64,000 nucleotides of DNA from Liolophura sinensis (taxonomy: Eukaryota > Mollusca > Polyplacophora > Chitonida > Chitonidae), in contig NC_088300.1 in the NCBI RefSeq assembly GCF_032854445.1, forward strand, positions 59,060,984-59,124,983, written 5' to 3'. The number at the start of each line of letters is the position of its first letter. The first letter of the stretch is position 1. The translations under genes and the position numbers were made by a program. The notes under the pieces were generated by a model. That model did no database searches, was not told the DNA's origin, and worked only from the letters and a program-made list of their open reading frames with translations. This document shows positions 5,301 to 56,710 of this stretch, piece by piece.

Positions 5301-5852
5301 AACCCATCCTTTTCTTATACTGGCCTAGCATCACTGGAATCTTGATGCTAACAGTGTCAATTTCGTATTCAAAGAAGGTCCAGGCCGATTTTCTCTGTTA
5401 TGGAATAAGTCTTGCCTTAATAAAAGAAACCAACCTAAAGACCTGCTTTCCACACCCACAGCATGGCCACCATATGTGCCTACTCGTTTTAGAATAAATT
5501 TATTATACCCATGAAGGCCTCCGTGGCACACATGCCTAGGCAGCTACCGCTGTCTTCCCACTGCTCCACATGAAGCGGGACATGCATGTCGCTGCTCAAG
5601 ATGGCAACTTCGCCGAGGTGTGTGTGCCATGGAAGCCTTCATGGCTATAATAAATCTGTTTTGAAACGAGTAAGGACATATGGTGGAGATGTGATGGGTG
5701 TGGAAAGTAGGTCTTTAGGTTGGTGTCTTATATTTGGGCAAGACGTATTCAGTAACAGAGAAATTCGGGCTGAGTCTTTGTTGAGTACAAAATTAACGCT
5801 CTTAGTATCAAGACTCCAACGATGCTAGGCCAATATAAGAAAAGGGGTTGGA
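5301..5852. repeat. Long inverted repeat with gap-free arms
   Basis: The left arm (about 5301-5536) is the reverse complement of the right arm (about 5611-5852), separated by about 75 bases. By eye the arms are roughly 80 percent identical with no obvious indel over about 215 bases. Landmarks are GGCCTAGCATC at 5322 and GATGCTAGGCC at 5820. Read outward, each arm gives a similar open frame containing LHGYNK, LKRV, TYGG and GVESRSLGW. It could be a foldback element or an inverted duplication of a coding fragment. RNA from it would form a long hairpin. Confidence 0.75.
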
Positions 5853-6040: not shown

Positions 6041-7681
6041 ATGGATATCAGGGACAGAAAAAGAATTCAGCGAAACTATGATTATCTCATCGAAGACATG
6101 TCAGATGTGTTGGACAATGTCATCGACTATTGTTACTCTAAAGAAATTCTGAGCGAAAGTTTGAAGACATCTGTGATGACAAGTGTTAGGAAAGAGGACA
6201 AGTGCAGGAAGTTTATTGATATGTTTTTGAAGAAGAGGATCTTGTGTAAGGAAGAGACAGCATTTCAGGTTCTTTGTGATGCGTTAGACAGATGTGACTC
6301 ATCCCATATAAAGAATACTTTGCTAGAGACAGATGTGAAGGATGTCACAGGTTAGTTTGTGTGAAATATATTATGTAATTGTTGTTAGATATATAAATAT
6401 TTTAAGTCTTTGGGATTTTTGAAAATTGTGATTTATGAGGTCAGCAGTTGAAAACACAATAAATAATACATGTATGATTAAATTATGGATTTACGTTAAT
6501 GGATTTGAGGTACATTATCAGTACTGGACATGTTTACACAATGTAGTATTGTTCAGCTACTCTGAATGACTGGCCAGGTACATCAATCAGACACAGTTCA
6601 AGTATTAACTTTGTCGTGTCAAAAATATGTAACCAAGCCAGTGGTCATAGATGACTATTGACTATTGTTAAGTATTGGAGGAGGCTAGTTTTGTAGGAGA
6701 AAATACAAACACATGCCAGATTTGGAGATGAGTTTTGTATTGTCATCAGCTGAGAAATAAATCATAACTGGAGCAGGGTCTTAGCCCACTGTTAAGTGTT
6801 TCAGTATAGTTGTGACATGCAATAACCTGAGAAAATCTTACATTAGAGCTATGGAGCTATGGAACTTTAAATTGTGTGAACAAATAAACCCTGAACCAGC
6901 TTACTGCAAATATCTCAACTGTGAAAATACCAAGAGTTGAAGTGCAAGACACCAAGCATATCGTTCATATATGGATAGTACATTCCTTTAGGCATGCTGG
7001 TAAAGCATATGTTATGAATAATGGGCCAGTTTTTCATGTGGTACAGGATGATACAGAATGACATCTGAATGTGTATTTATTTTGTAGAAGACGAGGAAGT
7101 AGAAGATGGCAGTTATCAGTATACCAGTCCTCAGGGAGGAGGTGAGTTTAAAAGTTTACAGTTAACTAGGCTGAAATCTGGTAAATTTTGTGAGTGCAGA
7201 AAATTAAGACATGACATCATTCATTGAGATCTGTAAGCCTTCATGGGGCATTCTGTGATATTAAAATGTTGGTCATGTGTTTTAGGTTTGTCAAACACAG
7301 AGCACCCAAATGTTTTTTTTTTGTTTTGTTTTGTTTTTAGGTGTTGGGGGTTGGGGGGTGGGTGGGTGGGGAGATGTTTATTTTGGTTCCTCTAGTTGTC
7401 ACGTTTTCATTTTCATACTGTAACATACATACATTGCATACATTTTGAATATTTAATGATTGTTGGCTTTCATGCAGTAACTGTTTGAAATAGTCTGATT
7501 TCGGTGTCATTTTATATCATTAGCATCAGATTTATTTAGACTGAATATATGTGCTTTTCTTGCAGAAAGTGGGGATGCTGGTAGACAAAATACTGTGATT
7601 AACATCACAAACAGTAAAGGTTTCCATATAGGAAACCAGAAGGTCATCAATTTTTACTATCCCTCCAAACCAAAGCCATGA
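6041..7681 (+). CDS. CARD plus RHIM-like motif adaptor protein (159 aa, 3 coding exons)
   Basis: Exons: 6041-6350, 7088-7141, 7566-7681 (stop TGA 7679-7681); phases 1 and 1 join cleanly and every junction is GT-AG. ATG 6041 lies 15 bases after a likely acceptor (TTCAG ending 6025), so an untranslated exon probably lies upstream. Residues 1-96 have the spacing of a CARD helical bundle: RRNYDYLIED-like first helix, an EIL...SLKTSVM block, then KCRKFIDMFLKK and AFQVLCDAL near the end. Residues 104-131 are an acidic, low-complexity linker. Residues 132-151 read VINITNSKGFHIGNQKVINF, which fits the RHIM pattern N-S-x-G-(hydrophobic)-(Q/H)-I-G, core F141-H142-I143-G144. CARDs and RHIMs are both homotypic assembly modules in innate immunity and cell death, so an adaptor role is inferred. 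There is no enzyme domain, TM segment or signal peptide. AATAAA at 8257 is a candidate poly(A) signal. No named orthologue is recognised. Confidence 0.8.
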
Positions 7682-8771: not shown

Positions 8772-9460
8772 TGTAACATGAGACAGGACAGTGTAACATG
8801 AGACAGGACAGTGTAACATAAGACAGGACAATGTAACATGAGACATGACAATGTAACAGGAGACAGGAAGGTGTAACAGGAGACATGACAATGTACCATG
8901 AGACATGACAGTGTACCATGAGACATGACAGTCGAACATGAGACATGACAGTGTAACATGAGACAAGACAGTGTAACATGATACAGGACAATGTAACATG
9001 AGACTGGACAGTGTAACATGAGACAGGATAATGTAACATGAGACATGGCAATGTAACATGAGACATGACAAAGTAACACGAGACAGGACAGTGTAACATG
9101 AGACAGGACAGTGTAGCATGAGGCATGACAATGTAACATGAGACACGACAGTGTAATGTGAGACACAACGGTGTAACTTGAGACAAGACAGTGTAACTTG
9201 AGACAGGACAGTGTAACTTGAGACAGGACAGTGTAACATAAGACACGACAGTGTAGCATGAGAAAGGACAGTGTAACATGAGATAGGGCAGTGAAGCATA
9301 GAACAGAAAAGTGTCCATGGAACAGGAAAGGGTGATGTGACCGAGGACAGTGTAACATGAAACCAAAAAGTGTAACTTTAACTTCATGTAGGAGAGTGTA
9401 ACATGAGAGAGGAGAGTGTGAAATGAGAATAAGGAGAGTGTAACATAAGATTAAGTATAA
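8772..9460. repeat. 20-bp minisatellite
   Basis: Unit GTGTAACATGAGACAGGACA, about 26 near-regular copies to about 9300, then degenerate copies to about 9460. Variants are mainly CAGGACA/CATGACA and AACATG/AACTTG. Twenty is not a multiple of three and the unit lacks stops in any minus-strand frame, so three overlapping minus-strand open frames of 186-245 codons arise. They are repeat artefacts, not genes. Confidence 0.95.
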
Positions 9461-28800: not shown

Positions 28801-31800
28801 CTACTTGAATGCCCTTGTAACCGACTGTACTGGTGCTTGTTATTTTATTGGAGTCATACATTGGTATAAAGTGTTGGTTATGACACTGTAGGAATATGTT
28901 ATTCATGCAGACTGTTATTAGGAAACCTTTGCTTTGATCATGTTGATAAAGATCTTTTTTGCCTTGAACTGTCATCACTGAGTTGACACACCATAGAGGT
29001 CATGGGTTCAAAGCTAACTGCCAGCAGTTTGTTTCTTATCCGAAAAGAGGTGACCTTCTAGGTTTTAATTTAGCAAATTAAGGACTTTCATTAGTGCTGT
29101 CTTTTCTGTGTATCTGAAATATTTTGGTGTTTTCCAGAAAGTGAAAAGATACACAAAGATATCACACCAATGTTTTGTTGCTTTTCTTATCTTTGTTTCA
29201 GACTTGCTGAGCATCAAGGAGTACCATTCCCTGGTACAGTTGCTTTGTCCTGATTTTCCCTTTGATGTTCTTCAGAAAACTGCCAGGTACATCAAGTTGA
29301 CGAGTTGACAGCAGAGGAAAACCCAGCCCCTGACAATAATTAACCATATCGACGAGATAAAGTTTATTAATCTTGCCTCGGACTATAACACCAGTTTTCC
29401 TTGCACTCTGATGCAAAGTGATGGGTTAAAATGATCACTGGGGAGTTTGTATTTTCCGTGGCTGAGGTGATTAGCGTGCTAGCATGGCGCAGTGACCCAT
29501 GAGTCTCTCACCAGAGCAGTCACTGTTCAAGTCCGGCTCATATTGGCTTCCTCTCCAGGAAGGTGGGAAGATCTATTAGCAAGCTGTGGGTGGTCGTGAG
29601 TTTTCTCCAGGCTCTGCCTGGTTCCCTCCCACCATAATGCTAACTGCCGTCGTATGCGTGAAATATTCTTGAGTATGCCGTAAAACACCAGTCAAATAAA
29701 TAAAGAAATAAATACTGTCAGTATTTTAATTTGAAACCTTCCAAATAATCTTACACTTCAGCACTAAAAAGCAGTGTTTGGCTTTTATCATTTCCTCATC
29801 ATTCTACTGTACTGGTCATCACAGTCACACATACATATTTTTCATTTACAATTTTATGCATAGATGGACATAATTCTTTCACATAAAGTATCATCTACAT
29901 GTATTTGTATGTATTACTTATGTGACTAGCTAAGCTCCCTAATATCAGGAAGATCATTTTGATGTTTGCTGACTTTTGCAGAATAGTTCTCATGGATGAT
30001 GCCCTGGACTGTTTGATTGGATTTTCTGACTTCTTATATGCCTTCCAAGCACAGTTTTACTATGAAGGTTTGCATATTTCCATGTCCAGTGCACACATAA
30101 CTTTGTAAGTCTGTAAAGTCTGTAGTAGTGAAAGTGCTATCATTATTTTAAGTTTAGCATCTTTCAGGTGACATGTTTTACTTGATTTTATTGATTGATT
30201 TATGATTGATTTATTCACCTTGTAGGGCCACTCTGAGTTTTCTGTGAAGTATCATTTTAAGGCATTTATGTGCTTATGAAAGTCCATTTTTACGGGTCAA
30301 ACTGTAGGTGAAATACTAATAATTCATACGTCTTTGTGACAAAATAACTGTTCATCTTTGGCAACATTGAGTCATCTTCTTGTAAACGGAAAACATAAAT
30401 GTTGAAAAACATCAAGTTTTGCAAAACATTTGAATGCCCGGAACTGTAGAATATGTTATTAATTTATATGAATATCTCTTAATTTTACCCAGATTAAACT
30501 CTAAATTAATGCAAGTGTGGCAGGTCTCCCATTTGTTTTTTTCTAGGGTAACTCTCATGTGTATCCAAGTTTGTTCCGTTCTTTTGTCAGAATTTTTAAA
30601 CAAAGCAACAGAGATCTACAAGTCATTACAGCAGTCACAGAGCAGCCCGCGAGAGACGGTGGTTGTGCCATCCTCAACTGATGACCAGCCCAATGTGAAG
30701 AGGAAGAGTCCGCCTCAGAGCCAGGACAGCGTAGATAGCAGCCTGTTCTTTAGGATGCTCTACCAGACCTGTGACAGGGCAGAATTCAGGTGCGTGTAAG
30801 GACAGCATAGATAGCAGCCTGTTCTTCAGGATGCTCTACCAGACCTGTGACAGGGCAGAATTTAGGTACATGTCAGGACAGCATGGATAGCAGCCTTTTC
30901 TTTAGGATGCTCTACCAGACTTGTGATGGGGCAGAATTCAGGTACCTGTCAGGACAGCATAGATAGCAGCCTGTTCTTTAGGATGCTCTACCAGATCTGT
31001 AACAGAGCAGAATTCAGGTACGTGTTAGGACAGCATAGATAGCAGCCTGTTCTTTAGGATGCTCTACCAGACTTGTGATGGGGCAGAATTCAGGTACCTG
31101 TCAGAACAGCATAGATAGCAGCCTTTTCTTTAGGATGCTCTACCAGATCTGTGACAGGGCGGAATTCAAGTACGTGTTGGGACAGCATAGATAGCAGCCT
31201 GTTCTTCAGGATGCTCTACCAGACCTGTGACATTCGGGTACGTGTTAGGACAGCATAGATATCAGCCTGTTCTTTAGGATGCTCTACCAGACCTGTGGCA
31301 GGGCAGAATTCAGGTACATGTCAGGACAGCATAGATAGCAGCCTGTTCTTCTGTGACAGGGCAAAATTGTAAATCAGTTTTTCATGAGTTGGTGTTAGAC
31401 CGTGTGCACAGCCGCACATCCAGATTACTGAGCAAGTAAAAAAAGCTAAAAGCCTTTCAAAAATGTATCCTGACGACAAAGCTCTTTTTAGTGATGTATT
31501 ACTTTTTATGTTGATGCCACATGGGCAGTGTTTTAGACATGCGGTGACTACTGTGTCAGTGGGTGATGTGGGCTTGATGGCACATGGGCAGTGTTTTAGA
31601 CATGCAGTGACTATTGTGTCAGTGAGTGATGGGGGCTTGATGTCACATGAGCAGTGTTTTAAACATGCAGTGACTACTGTGTCAGTGGGTGATGGGGCTT
31701 GGGGCCACATGAGCAGTGTTTTAGACAAGCAGTGACTACAGCGTCAGTGAGTGATGGGTGCTTGATGCCACATGGGCAGTGTTTTAGACTTGCAGTGACT

Positions 31801-34800
31801 ACAGCGTCAGTGAGTGATGGGGCTGGAGGCCACATGGGCAGTGTTTTAGACATGCGGTGACTACGGCATCAGTGAGTGATGGGGGGCTTGATGTCACATG
31901 GGCAGTGTTTTAGACATGTAGTAACTACTGTTTCAGTGAGTGATGGGTGCTTGATGGCACATGGGCAGTGTTTTAGACATACAGTAACTACTGTGTCAGT
32001 GAATGCTGGGAGGCTTGATGCCACATGGGCAGTGTTTTAGACATGTAGTAACCACAGGGCCAGTGAGTGATGGGTGCTTGATGGCACATGGGCAGTCTTT
32101 TAGACATGCAGTAACTACTGTGTCAGTGAATGATGGGGGGCTTGATGCCACATGGGCAGTGTTTTAGACATGTAGTAACTACAGGGTCAGTGAATGCTGG
32201 GAGGCTTGATGCCACATGGGCAGTGTTTTAGACATGTAGTAACTACAGCGTCAGTGAGTGATGGGGCTTGATGGCACACGGGCAATGTTTTAGACATGCA
32301 TTGACTACTGTATCAGTGAGTGATGTGGGCATGATGGCACATGGGCAGTGTTTTAGACATGCAGTGACTACTGTATCAGTGAGTGATGTGGGCTTGATGG
32401 CACATGGGCAATGTTTTAGACATGCATTGACTAGTGTGTCAGTGAGTGATGGGGGCTTGATACCACATGGGCAGTGTTTTAGACCTGCAGTGACTACTGT
32501 GTCAGTGAGTGATGGGGGCTTGATGGCACATGGGCATTGTTTTAGACATGCAGTGACTACTGTGTCAATGAGTGATGTGGGCTTGATGGCACATGGCAGT
32601 GTTTTAGACCTGCAGTGACTACTGTGTCAGTGAGTGATGGGGGCTTGTTGCCACATGGGCAATGTTTTAGACATGCATTGACTAGTGTGTCAGTGAGTGA
32701 TGGGGGCTTGATACCACATGGGCAGTGTTTTAGACCTGCAGTGACTACTGTGTCAGTGAGTGATGGGGGCTTGTTGCCACATGGGCAGTGTTTTAGACAA
32801 GCATTGACTAATGTGTCAGTGAGTGATGGGGGCTTGATGGCACATGGGCATTGTTTTAGACATGCAGTGACTACTGTGTCAGTGAGTGATGGGGCTTGAT
32901 GGCACATGGGCAGTGTTTTAGACCTGCAGTGACTACTGTGTCAGTGAGTGATGGGGGCTTGTTGCCACATGGGCAGTGTTTTAGACATGCGGTGACCACA
33001 GGGTCAGTGAGTGATGGGTGCTTGATGTCACATGGGCAGTCTTTTAGACATGCAGTGACTACTGTGTCAGTGAATGATTGGGGGCTTGATGTCACATGGG
33101 TAGTGTTTTAGACATGTAGTAACTACAGGGTCAGTGAGTGATGGGTGTTTGATGGCACATGGGCAGTCTTTAGACATGCAGTAACTACTGTGTCAGTTGG
33201 TGATGTGGGCTTGATGCCACATGGGCAGTGTTTTAGACATGCAGTGACTACTGTGTCAGTGAGTGATGGGGGCTTGATGCCACATGGGCAGTGTTTTAGA
33301 TATGCAGTCATAATAGAAGTCAGTTAAACACTGTTTACTATGTCACTTTGTCCAATCTCCTCATTACTATTTACAGTGTCCCCTCAGTGGATGTTCTGAA
33401 GGAACTGTTGGACATGCCCCAAGTCACCTATTATAGTTTCCTTATGTTTGTAGCTAAGAGCCAGAGAATCAATGAAGCCATTGGTAAGCCTACAAATATT
33501 CTCACTTAATCGTCATTCAAGAAGAAAAAAATCAAAAACGATGGTACCTGTACCATTATTATTATGCATAGTTTTATGATCATTAATACAGCCATGTATA
33601 TAATGACATATATCACAGAGTAAAGACATAAAGCATCTTATAAATCAGTCATGTGGTTTGAAAAGGAATTAATGACTTCAATATTTCTCGCTGGTGAAAG
33701 TCATGTCAATTGTGTAAATGTCTAATTTTTCCACAGGGCGCTTACCAAAGAAAGATGAACTATTTGAGGGGCTTAATCGGGAAAGCTCTACGTAAGTACA
33801 ATAATGTACAATAAGTCTTCATTGGAAATATTTTCCTTGTTGTTATCAAGTTGTAAATCTGAACAGAAAATGATTCTCGTGAAAAGGTGTCATCAGCTGT
33901 ATCGAATGTCTTGAGAAGAACTACATGCGAGAATGCTAAATTTTTTAACCAAAAATATGGCAGTATAATTTAGCATGTGTTTAAGTGAAAGTCATAAGTT
34001 ACTTAACTTTGCAATGTAGTTTCTCATTTTTTTGCTGTATTTGGTAAGTTTTCTCAAGCGATGAGTTATGAGAACAATTTTCAGTAGTAATAAGACAGTT
34101 TCTTTAATGTGATAGCAGGCAGTCTAAAACCAAGTCTTTGCCAAGGTGAAGCTGTGAGAGCTTCGCACATCCCTGGTAGGTCTCCTACAAGTACCATATG
34201 TATAAGCCTGATTGCTTCATGTAGATGCTAGACTAGTTTTCACTCTGGAGCTTTTTTAGTACTAACCCCTTACCGAAATACAATTCGTCTGCCAGCAACT
34301 TGAGGATGTTTGTGCGTTTTCGCATGGCTCTGCTCGGTTTCCATCCACCATAATGCTGGTCCCCGTTGTATAAGTGAAATATTCTTAAGTGCAGCATAAA
34401 ACAGCATTCAAATAAATAAATAAATGAAATGCAGTTCATGAAAAGGTAGTTCATTCTGGACATCAGAAACACTTAATCGAATGAAAGCTGTTATAATTGC
34501 ATGGACATTCATGCTTTTTTATTTCATTTGAGCCTCACAAGATGGACCTTTTTAAGAGATGCTTTTAAAGTGTCATTTAAAGAGAATAGGATTTGTTTGT
34601 ACTCGAGCAGTCCAGTCAAACTTATGTTATGGAGGTGCTTTTACAAAGATTTGGACACCTTTTGTAATGGTTTAGTGCTGTGGGCATTGCTGTAGGCATT
34701 AATGTTTCAGTGGTAATTTGTCCGTAAGTTCACAGTGCAGGTACAATCCTTACAACATCATTCATCCTCTGTGTATTGAATTTTTTTGATTGGTGTTTTA

Positions 34801-39685: not shown

Positions 39686-52332
<12,647 letters not shown>

Positions 52333-53954
52333 GACTTCTGTGAAAGATAAAAAAGAAAAACACCCCAAATTATCCATGGTTCAATTATCCTTTGTTTCTT
52401 TAATTTGCAACAATGTAATACATGTTATTTACAAAGCAATGCCTGGCTTACAAGCAGGTTATACCAGTATACATTATCAGATTTATCAGGTCCATAAAGG
52501 TGACAAGAATGGCATATCCTATTCTTTTTACCAGGTGAAGTATACAAGGGCAACCAAATACTGCATCTGCAACTAAATCAACATGGGTCTGTACACATAA
52601 AATTATAATATTATTGGCCTGATTGACCAACACTTGAAATATAAAATTTGAACTGTTTCTGAACAGATTGAAGCCCTGAAAATATGTCAAAATCCACATC
52701 ATGCAAAAATAGCATGAAAATACCCTATGGAACAGAACTAACATCACAGTTCAAAAATATTTACAATAAATAATACTACTTAACTCCAACAAAGTCCTGA
52801 AAAAAAATATCTGACAGTTTCCGTAAAATTTTCCTCAATGATGTGATAATATTCCTTATGTGACAAGGAATCAGGAAGACATGATGCCGAGCAAGGCATT
52901 TATGCTAGAATGACATCATGTGGGTTTGAAAGTAAAACGTTATTTGTCGCTATACGTCAGTGATGAGTGACGCCAACTCTTCTTGCATGACCTCACATCA
53001 GGCAAACTTGGAAATAACATAAAACTTTTGTTTCTGAATTATCCTCCCAAACTAACAACAGTGGTTTTAATACAAAGCAACTTTTTAGAATTTATTAATG
53101 TAATTCGGATTAGCTCCATCTCGTTGTCATTTTACCCTGCTCTTAAAACATACAGGTCTTGACACTGAAGTAGCTCTTTATGGTTTAATTCTCTTTAAAT
53201 ATTGTGTATGCACATAACTTAAATTCAAAACTACCTACTGTCTTGTCATGTGTCTACGGCTTTGAATGCATTAATTTGCAATGAAACGACACTTCAGACG
53301 AGTCAGTAAGGCAGCAGATCAACAACACTAGTTGTTACTTGTTGTTAAATGATTAAATTATCCTACAATGCACCACGTAATAGTTATTTTAATACGGGTA
53401 GGTGATGTGGATGGGTCTCAGTGAGTCACACAGGTTTTGCAGTTTAAAGATTACTTTTCCATATCTTGCGCAAGTAGCTATGTTTTCTTAAAAACTGTGC
53501 TATAATTCTCAGGTTACTACACTCATATTGCTCTTGAAACTGATGTGTAGGTATATAGAATAGATATACAGAGTTATTACAGCACTGTAGGTACAGCCAA
53601 GACCTTAAGTAATTGTACTGCTTTCATCATAATCCAGTGTGACTCAGATAAAATGTGCTACAAACAAAGTGATGGTCATTTTGTTTATTTTTTATTTGAT
53701 CATTGTAACGTTATACTATCATGCTTAATAATAAAATAGTTAATACGCTGTAAGATATTGTTTTGAAGGTTTTCAAACAAATGACATCGTTCCAACTACA
53801 AGGCGTCATAATTTTGATTTAATAACCGACAAGGTTTTTAATGAATGTTTAAGACTTTATGCCACTTCGACAGTTTACAATTTACAATCCAGGCAAGGTT
53901 TTGAATCGCCAATGCTAACCTAAAATCGTTGACTGTTATTCAAATGCTTCATTC
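52333..53954. other. 5' flank of KIF18, with unlocated 5' UTR exon
   Basis: On the minus strand a pyrimidine-rich acceptor (CTTTTTTATCTTTCACAG) ends 6 bases before the KIF18 ATG, so at least one non-coding exon lies upstream. It cannot be placed. No other gene is recognised. Confidence 0.5.
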
Positions 53955-55569: not shown

Positions 55570-56710
55570 CGATGAGTACCATTCGAAATTTTTAACATTT
55601 TGTAATGATTTACTGTGGTTCAAGGTTTTTCTAATGAAAGCTTATATTATTCAGGACAAAGAATTCAAAGGATATGGAACACAAAGTAGTTTTCCAGAAT
55701 TGATAAATTCAGCTGTAAACTTCGAAAAATAGTGAAAAACGTTTTCTTCGCGGTGTAAACCTTTTTTCCACGGTGAAAACGTTTTCTCCGCGATATAAAG
55801 TTTTTCTCCGCGATGTAAACGTTTTCTCTGCAGTGAAAAGATTTTCTCCGCGGTGTACACGTTTTCTCCGCGCCATGTGTAAACGTTTTCTCCACGTGTA
55901 AACGTTTTCACCCAGGAGAAAAAGTTTTCTCCGCGGCGTAAACCCAAGTATTAGACTCCTGAAAGCGTAGGGAAGCTGTACCTTATTAGCACTTCCGTTT
56001 CTCGGGAAGGCGAATGTAATTCTGTGTATTTTAGTGTGTAAAGTCTTTTTTCGCTGCCAGCCTGTCATTTTTGGTGAACAGGTGGATGCTTGGTATCAAA
56101 GTGAGGGAAACTGTCTAAGCTTTTGGCAGGTAGGAGTTTTAATGATGAAAGTTTGAAATTGTGGGTCAGAGGACAGAAGGGGACACGTGGTGATGAGGCT
56201 GCGAGTCCAGATTTTGATGGTCAACCTATGTCAAGATTTTTATGGCTTCTTTTCACAGGCTGGGCGAGGTATGCACCAAAGCTTATTGGCCACGGAATGT
56301 TTGGGACCGAGCTACAGCGCTAAACGCTAACATTGTCGTTTGGAAAATTAATGGGAGTCTGTGGCCGCATGATAATTAGATCAAAGATGGCCAATATCTC
56401 AGAGCGGGGCTCTGAGAAGTGTCACGTGGGTTTCCAGCGCGAAGAAAAGGTTTACACCGCGGAGAAAACGTTTCCACTGCGAAAAAAAAAACCGTTTACA
56501 CCGCTAAGAAAATTTTTATACCACGGAGAAAACCTGTTTTTACCTTTTAGTTGAATTTATCAATTTTGTGTAAAATATTTTATTTCTGCGTTGATTTTCT
56601 TTCGCATATACTTGAAATTCTTTGTTCATAATGATAAGTTTCTTTGGAAAGTCCTCTGAATCAGAAAATGCCAGAACTTTCGAATGGCACTAATGGGTCA
56701 CCGTGCTCTT
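55570..56710. mobile_element. Foldback element with subterminal 20-bp repeats
   Basis: The outer arms (about 55585-55730 and 56540-56700) are imperfect inverses: CCATTCGAAA / TTTCGAATGG, GACAAAGAATTC / GAAATTCTTTGTTC, GAATTGATAAATTC / GAATTTATCAATTT. Inside each arm lie tandem units around AAACGTTTTCTCCGCGGTGT: about ten at 55735-55945 and four in reverse at 56435-56535. About 490 bases of other sequence lie between. No transposase. The Arg/Lys-rich minus-strand frames at 55651-56068 are artefacts of the units. Confidence 0.75.

Follow-up and report, generated by a model that had tools for sequence, protein, structure and literature searches.

Most of what has been described of RHIM signalling comes from vertebrates, insects and fungi. 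We asked whether a short gene in a chiton genome encodes a protein that joins a CARD to a RHIM-like motif, and what such a protein could do. The gene lies in a stretch of 64,000 nucleotides (the window; C6:59060984-59124983) of the Liolophura sinensis genome, whose assembly comprises 609,464,459 bases in 632 contigs. The assembly was published as Liolophura japonica, a name that has since been corrected to L. sinensis (PMC11068029, PMC12441733).

A three-exon gene model with phase-matched borders

As the original prediction had proposed, three phase-matched exons of the window can be joined into a predicted product of 159 aa (Table 1), and on paper this gene is confirmed as real. Both introns have GT-AG borders (donors GTTAGT and GTGAGT; acceptors TTTTGTAG and TTCTTGCAG) and both are phase 1, so that exon 2 is symmetric and a direct joining of exon 1 to exon 3 is also possible. 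The start codon stands in the context ATCATGG with a reading frame that stays open 5' of it, and in exon 3 an in-frame stop follows soon 3' of the RHIM-like motif. No family match was obtained for the 54 nt of exon 2 in a Pfam scan of the 159-aa protein. About 200 bp upstream of the start codon, the window also contains an inverted repeat (5308-5845), with 234-nt arms that are 82% complementary and 70 nt apart.

Table 1. Predicted features of the CARD and RHIM-like gene (window positions)
Feature	Positions	Strand	Content and basis
Exon 1	6041..6350	+	Initiator ATG; CARD (residues 7-87 by Pfam, at 6059-6301)
Exon 2	7088..7141	+	Acidic linker, 18 codons, symmetric phase 1-1; splice consensus
Exon 3	7566..7681	+	C-terminal tail with RHIM-like motif; stop TGA 7679-7681
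RHIM-like motif ITNSKGFHIGNQKVINF	7604..7654	+	Tetrad FHIG at 7622-7633; BLOSUM scoring, RHIM alignment, regexes

The N-terminal part is a CARD

The CARD-like bundle that had been suggested for the N-terminus was borne out by domain and structure searches. Pfam matched CARD (PF00619) with 33.3 bits (E 5.1e-8; cut-off 23.9), and exon 1 was among the 20 CARD matches listed genome-wide. When exon 1 was aligned with 20 other CARDs of the same genome (19 loci plus L007) and submitted to AlphaFold, the resulting model had a pLDDT of 87.8 and a pTM of 0.78; its helices (3-11/13-20, then five more) fit a six-helix death fold with a kinked first helix. The top PDB match of this model was the APAF-1 CARD 1cy5 (TM 0.80, 19% identity, Foldseek E 5e-3), and Foldseek returned nothing from the PDB at E 0.001 or better. 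By protein search, the closest sequence relatives of exon 1 in the genome were three CARDs on C10 (32-35% identical, E 0.1-1), followed by two weaker matches on C7, all with E 0.109 or worse. Sequence searches of the PDB gave no relevant match for the full-length protein or for its tail.

At the 19 further CARD loci (6 kb each) the RHIM-like regexes described below had no match, and a caspase signature regex matched at two of the 19 (L024, L025), both of which lack a QAC-x-G site. L007 was considered as a second gene with CARD and RHIM, and was rejected on finding a repeat-rich frame after its CARD and no RHIM. Together with L027 and L029 it belongs to a set of related CARD genes on C10 and C11, and the frame after the L007 CARD contains tandem DDRKLFESILDERLE-type repeats. 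A separate locus, L014 (C1:33317965-33318725), has a CARD exon with a Death-domain match about 300 bp further on, in a CRADD-like layout.

The tail is RHIM-like, with His in place of the core Gln

Aligned with the PDB RHIMs of RIPK1 and RIPK3 (the two proteins that this comparison covered), the tail shares the frame I-x-N-[SC]-x-G-hydrophobic-[QH]-[IV]-G. The flank before the tetrad reads ITNSKG and agrees with the I-x-N-[SC]-x-G of RHIMs, whereas the tetrad FHIG deviates from V/I-Q-V/I-G in having Phe for V/I and, as originally noticed, His for Gln. Two RHIM-like regexes, one stricter than the other and both devised with the motif already known, matched once each, at the window motif, when the window and 19 other CARD loci were translated in six frames (355,958 residues in total); the same regexes gave four matches (∼5e-7 per residue) and one match, respectively, in 7.68 million simulated residues. 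In addition, ITNSKGFHIGNQKVINF had a mean BLOSUM score of 27.0 against three RHIMs (two of RIPK1, one of RIPK3), and no other 17-mer of the window scored as high. Over the 170,981 positions scored in all, two other 17-mers exceeded it, one of which was in L002, a locus that had been chosen by RHIM search. Judged by sequence, the likeness of the tail to RHIMs exceeds chance.

Support from shuffling was weak when exon 3 was locally aligned with individual RHIMs, with shuffles reaching the score in 12 of 5000 cases for RIPK1 of 8ib0, 137 of 5000 for human RIPK1 and 339 of 5000 for RIPK3. Moreover, the Pfam RHIM family (PF12721; cut-off 20 bits) did not match the native tail at E<=10, and a control RIPK1 peptide scored 25.7 bits. 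Changing His to Gln in silico raised the window peptide to 14.3 bits (E 0.032), still under the cut-off, and the failure of the native tail can thus be attributed in part to the His at its core. The motif is RHIM-like, and Pfam does not class it as a RHIM. Genome-wide, the Pfam RHIM search gave four sub-threshold matches, none of them in a convincing gene and with exon 3 not among the matches listed. A protein search of the genome found no paralogue of exon 3, which is a single-copy exon by this measure, and one scan for viral relatives gave four pattern matches, none of which was confirmed.

Motif patterns in the genome and their look-alikes

The motif was also sought by pattern across the whole genome. 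The broad pattern N-x-x-G-x-[HQ]-x-G had 154 matches against 85 in the control, with the first 100 of the 154 listed. There was no excess of the canonical Q-core with I/V/M (13 against 12 in the control), and none of the six of these 13 that were inspected (L050, L062-L066) was convincing. The H-V-G pattern matched 20 times against 10 in the control, with one of the 20 inspected (L048) and found unconvincing, and a looser pattern matched 45 times against 23, with 18 places inspected and none convincing; one of these places resembles a HIRAN domain.

The pattern N-[S/T/C/R/W]-x-G-x-H-I-G stood out with 65 matches against 10 in the reversed control. However, 43 of the 65 represent one repeat, in which N-T-x-G-L-H-I-G lies in a 22-aa frame in all five copies inspected, and they were set aside as non-coding. 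This interspersed repeat (L056-L060 and ∼38 further places) is a trap for RHIM pattern searches. The other 22 matches comprised two with a stop in the motif, the window itself, two exons with the tetrad VHIG, five members of what we call the NCK family, and 12 remaining places, of which 11 were inspected without finding a recognisable gene, a tandem copy at C8:33195748 being left out.

The NCK family consists of short dispersed frames typified by INNCKG[FL]HIGHTVVRNTIEIRGSRWIIIMG (L032, L033, L034, L038, L061, L067-L074, L079). It had 17 matches listed on C1, C2, C4, C5, C7, C8, C12 and C602, 16 of them with E < 0.02; three of the 17 contain internal stops, and some copies are degraded. In a comparison of 12 of the 16 copies, which omits L073 and L074 (without anchor) and two further copies, mean pS was 0.235 and mean pN 0.116, and the His and the last Gly of the tetrad were each conserved in 11 of the 12 and the Gly preceding the tetrad in nine. 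A fusion of an NCK frame with a Death domain was considered and rejected: one NCK copy has a Death-domain exon ∼9.6 kb upstream, with no splice link found between the two. Elsewhere, L051 (C7:55018700-55028500) has a Death-domain frame followed by frames that by eye look like SH2 (WHGKI, NLIEYYSRHSL), which Pfam did not confirm on two pieces.

RHIM-like exons at SAMD9-type loci on C8

Among the closest relatives that we found of the window's NITNSKGFHIGNQ are RHIM-like exons of phase 1-1 at four loci in C8:50.513-50.561 Mb (L052, L075, L076, L080). Two have the tetrad VHIG and two FQIG (motifs NISNCEGVHIGDQ in two copies, NISNCENFQIGDR and NIFNCENFQIGDR; the FQIG form is NI[SF]NCENFQIGDR); the core residue thus alternates between His and Gln. 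The VHIG exons form an inverted pair and came from the H-I-G pattern search; a protein search with the VHIG exon gave two more copies close by, as well as a degraded match on C13. It was through these VHIG paralogues, and not through a pattern derived from the window motif, that the FQIG pair came to light. In four comparisons between VHIG and FQIG exons, pS was 0.45-0.55 and pN 0.21-0.25, which indicates that the exon was constrained during the His/Gln exchange.

Exon 3 aligned with each VHIG exon at a score of 48 and with two NCK members at 45 and 51 (0 of 5000 shuffles in every case), scores that are inflated because both sets were picked by a pattern from the window motif, which makes their agreement in N..G.HIG one of construction. 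In the stretch NI[TS]N..G.HIG[ND]Q that is common to exon 3 and the VHIG exons, NI[TS] before the tetrad and [ND]Q after it lie outside the search pattern. The FQIG exons scored lower, at 33 and 36, values that 30 and 18 of 5000 shuffles reached, respectively.

All four C8 exons have GT-AG borders, and the exon that follows was judged by eye to be of matching phase 1 in the three cases for which downstream DNA was available. SAMD9-type sequence follows the RHIM-like exon at all three loci examined downstream (C8:50514 excluded). The FQIG copy at C8:50553 has an intact frame of 1,560 aa downstream that matches SAMD9 in the PDB (E 9e-16) and has Pfam matches to SLFN_AlbA_2 and then nSTAND_NTPase5, both below the cut-offs. 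The bodies of both VHIG loci match this frame with 50-94% identity over pieces. Each of them is split over three frames, with one stop in the pieces of the plus-strand copy and 12 in those of the minus-strand copy, and since they are broken in this way the VHIG copies may be pseudogenes or carriers of assembly errors. One piece of the plus-strand copy reached 20.5 bits for nSTAND_NTPase5, short of the Pfam cut-off, and a PDB search with two pieces of its body gave no SAMD9 match. SAMD9-family members are large AlbA/STAND proteins, and the four C8 loci have a RHIM-like exon similar to the window motif; the 159-aa protein has neither AlbA_2 nor a STAND NTPase (Pfam scan). No CARD or Death domain was found at the C8 SAMD9-type locus among the matches listed genome-wide.

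The N-termini of SAMD9-family proteins are reported to vary, and many non-vertebrate members have a CARD, Death, Pyrin or FIIND domain there (PMC5445408). SAM is also among the N-termini described in the available part of that report, and RHIM is not. Among the papers listed by literature searches, a SAMD9-RHIM fusion was not the subject of any title or abstract opening.

Comparison with known proteins

RIPK1, RIPK3, ZBP1 and TRIF have kinase, DD, TIR or Z-alpha domains where the chiton protein has its CARD. These proteins, like spiralian RIPK1, also have Gln at the core, and the Pfam RHIM family detects the RIPK1 peptide but not the chiton tail. Insect IMD is closer in architecture, as a small adaptor with a domain of the death-fold superfamily and a short amyloid motif (the cRHIM, also present in PGRP-LC). 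Compared by description, IMD has a C-terminal Death domain instead of a CARD and a different order of parts; in the chiton protein the Pfam scan detected a CARD at the N-terminus but no Death domain, which places it outside the IMD type. ASC (PYD-CARD) is likewise a small adaptor with two interfaces and a CARD output, but its second interface is a PYD fold where the chiton protein has a candidate amyloid motif.

The pairing had originally been put forward as undescribed, and this part of the proposal falls away, given that an ORF of bivalve iridovirus 1, BiIV1_006R, has been reported to combine CARD and RHIM and to be similar to bivalve sequences (PMC12452177, 2025). The likeness to the chiton gene is that CARD and RHIM are reported in one protein and that its sequence relatives are molluscan. 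Compared by description only, BiIV1_006R differs in being a viral ORF, whereas the chiton gene belongs to the host, is predicted to be spliced and has His at the core of its motif; its CARD is above the Pfam cut-off and its tail only RHIM-like. The authors of that report state that CARD and RHIM can both help inhibit host cell death.

Other spiralian RHIMs have been described in RIPK1 homologues of zebra mussel, Lingula and further species (PMC12119088). In that report, RHIM mutation reduced or abolished NF-kB activation by RIPK1 C-termini from lizard, lamprey and zebra mussel, and human RIPK3 with TQIG or VQSG did not activate NF-kB, with all tested variants retaining ZBP1-dependent death. 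According to the available parts of two further reports, RHIM-bearing PGRPs and IMD were not found in molluscs or brachiopods (PMC9835746), and among RIP kinases RHIM and CARD were found in vertebrates only (PMC9573974).

A possible adaptor and its alternatives

Our tentatively favoured reading is that the 159-aa protein acts as a small innate-immune adaptor with two interfaces, comparable to ASC, with a RHIM-type input and a CARD output. An upstream sensor with a RHIM would oligomerise, and its motif would template that of the adaptor, whose C-terminal His-core motif may seed a cross-beta assembly of RHIM type or add on to an existing one. The N-terminal domain, a CARD by family and predicted fold, would then join CARD assemblies, possibly as a filament with a CARD-bearing partner, and the clustered CARDs would bring in an effector with a CARD, for example an initiator caspase or a protein of the APAF-1/CRADD type. 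The CARD, the motif, the exon borders and the related exons are observed in the sequence, and from there we infer the splicing, expression, amyloid formation, partner and output of the protein. Within this genome, the best candidate for the sensor would be the SAMD9-type STAND NTPase group at C8:50.51-50.56 Mb, because the N-termini of the SAMD9 family vary (PMC5445408) and a RHIM-like exon precedes the body here; that these proteins are the actual upstream partner is doubtful.

The idea of an adaptor that joins CARD and amyloid signalling is plausible and is backed by the RHIM-like exons at SAMD9-type genes, and the reported effects of RHIM mutation on NF-kB activation by RIPK1 speak for it (PMC12119088). 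Against it we count that Pfam does not recognise the motif as a RHIM and scores it below the cut-off even with Gln, that the intact SAMD9-type copy has FQIG and the VHIG bodies are frame-broken, and that the genome shows neither an excess of Q-core motifs nor a Pfam RHIM above cut-off. The reported inactivity of TQIG and VQSG for NF-kB (PMC12119088) and the restriction of RHIM and CARD to vertebrates among RIP kinases (PMC9573974) weigh in the same direction.

Alternatively, the protein could be an adaptor or regulator that uses its CARD only and has a short disordered tail, which would resemble a RHIM by chance, being beta-prone and rich in Asn and Gly. The His core and absent Pfam RHIM match of the tail, the weak shuffle support against individual RHIMs and the single-copy state of exon 3 all suit this explanation, which we consider possible but doubtful, in view of the low regex rate in simulated residues relative to the single real match and of the closely similar motif in exons preceding SAMD9-type bodies. 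CARD-only and viral RHIM proteins act as decoys or brakes in other systems. By analogy, and improbably in our estimate, the chiton protein could be a decoy or brake whose His core binds SAMD9-like RHIM assemblies and caps them or excludes CARD. Its small size and altered core residue would agree with such a role, as would the tuning of RIPK3 output by core changes (PMC12119088) and the inhibitory potential of both domains in the bivalve iridovirus protein (PMC12452177), but a host gene need not behave like a viral one.

The pairing might also be an artefact of the gene model, if exon 3 belonged to another transcript or further exons existed. The exons were predicted from DNA alone, with a 54-nt exon 2 that matches no family and an open frame upstream of the ATG; such an error is nevertheless distinctly improbable in the light of two GT-AG introns, phase 1 throughout, the in-frame stop just after the motif and the report of the same pairing in bivalves (PMC12452177).

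Returning to the adaptor reading, it can be extended to a mollusc amyloid-to-CARD relay, a scheme that we regard as unlikely in its entirety. In this relay, SAMD9-type STAND NTPases in which a RHIM-like motif replaces the N-terminal death-fold domain would signal via small CARD-RHIM adaptors, the His/Gln-switchable core would set the partners, and bivalve iridoviruses would have captured the adaptor as a block. Since RHIMs of spiralians have been reported in RIPK1 homologues (PMC12119088) and the CARD and RHIM pairing itself is known from bivalves and their iridovirus (PMC12452177), the new leads are the His-core variant of the motif and the possible SAMD9-type immune partner. A chiton protein with CARD and RHIM-like motif, from a genome that has related exons at SAMD9-type genes, would connect amyloid signalling with an antiviral STAND family, and the motif would show in a natural setting if His can replace the core Gln.

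Other features of the window

Minisatellites were found at window positions 8772-9360, 30722-31350, 31511-33308 and 55737-55943, with units of 20, 76, 63 (also 314) and 20 bases, respectively. On the minus strand, exons of a kinesin motor lie at positions 51610-52380 (Pfam E 1e-15 and 4e-9).
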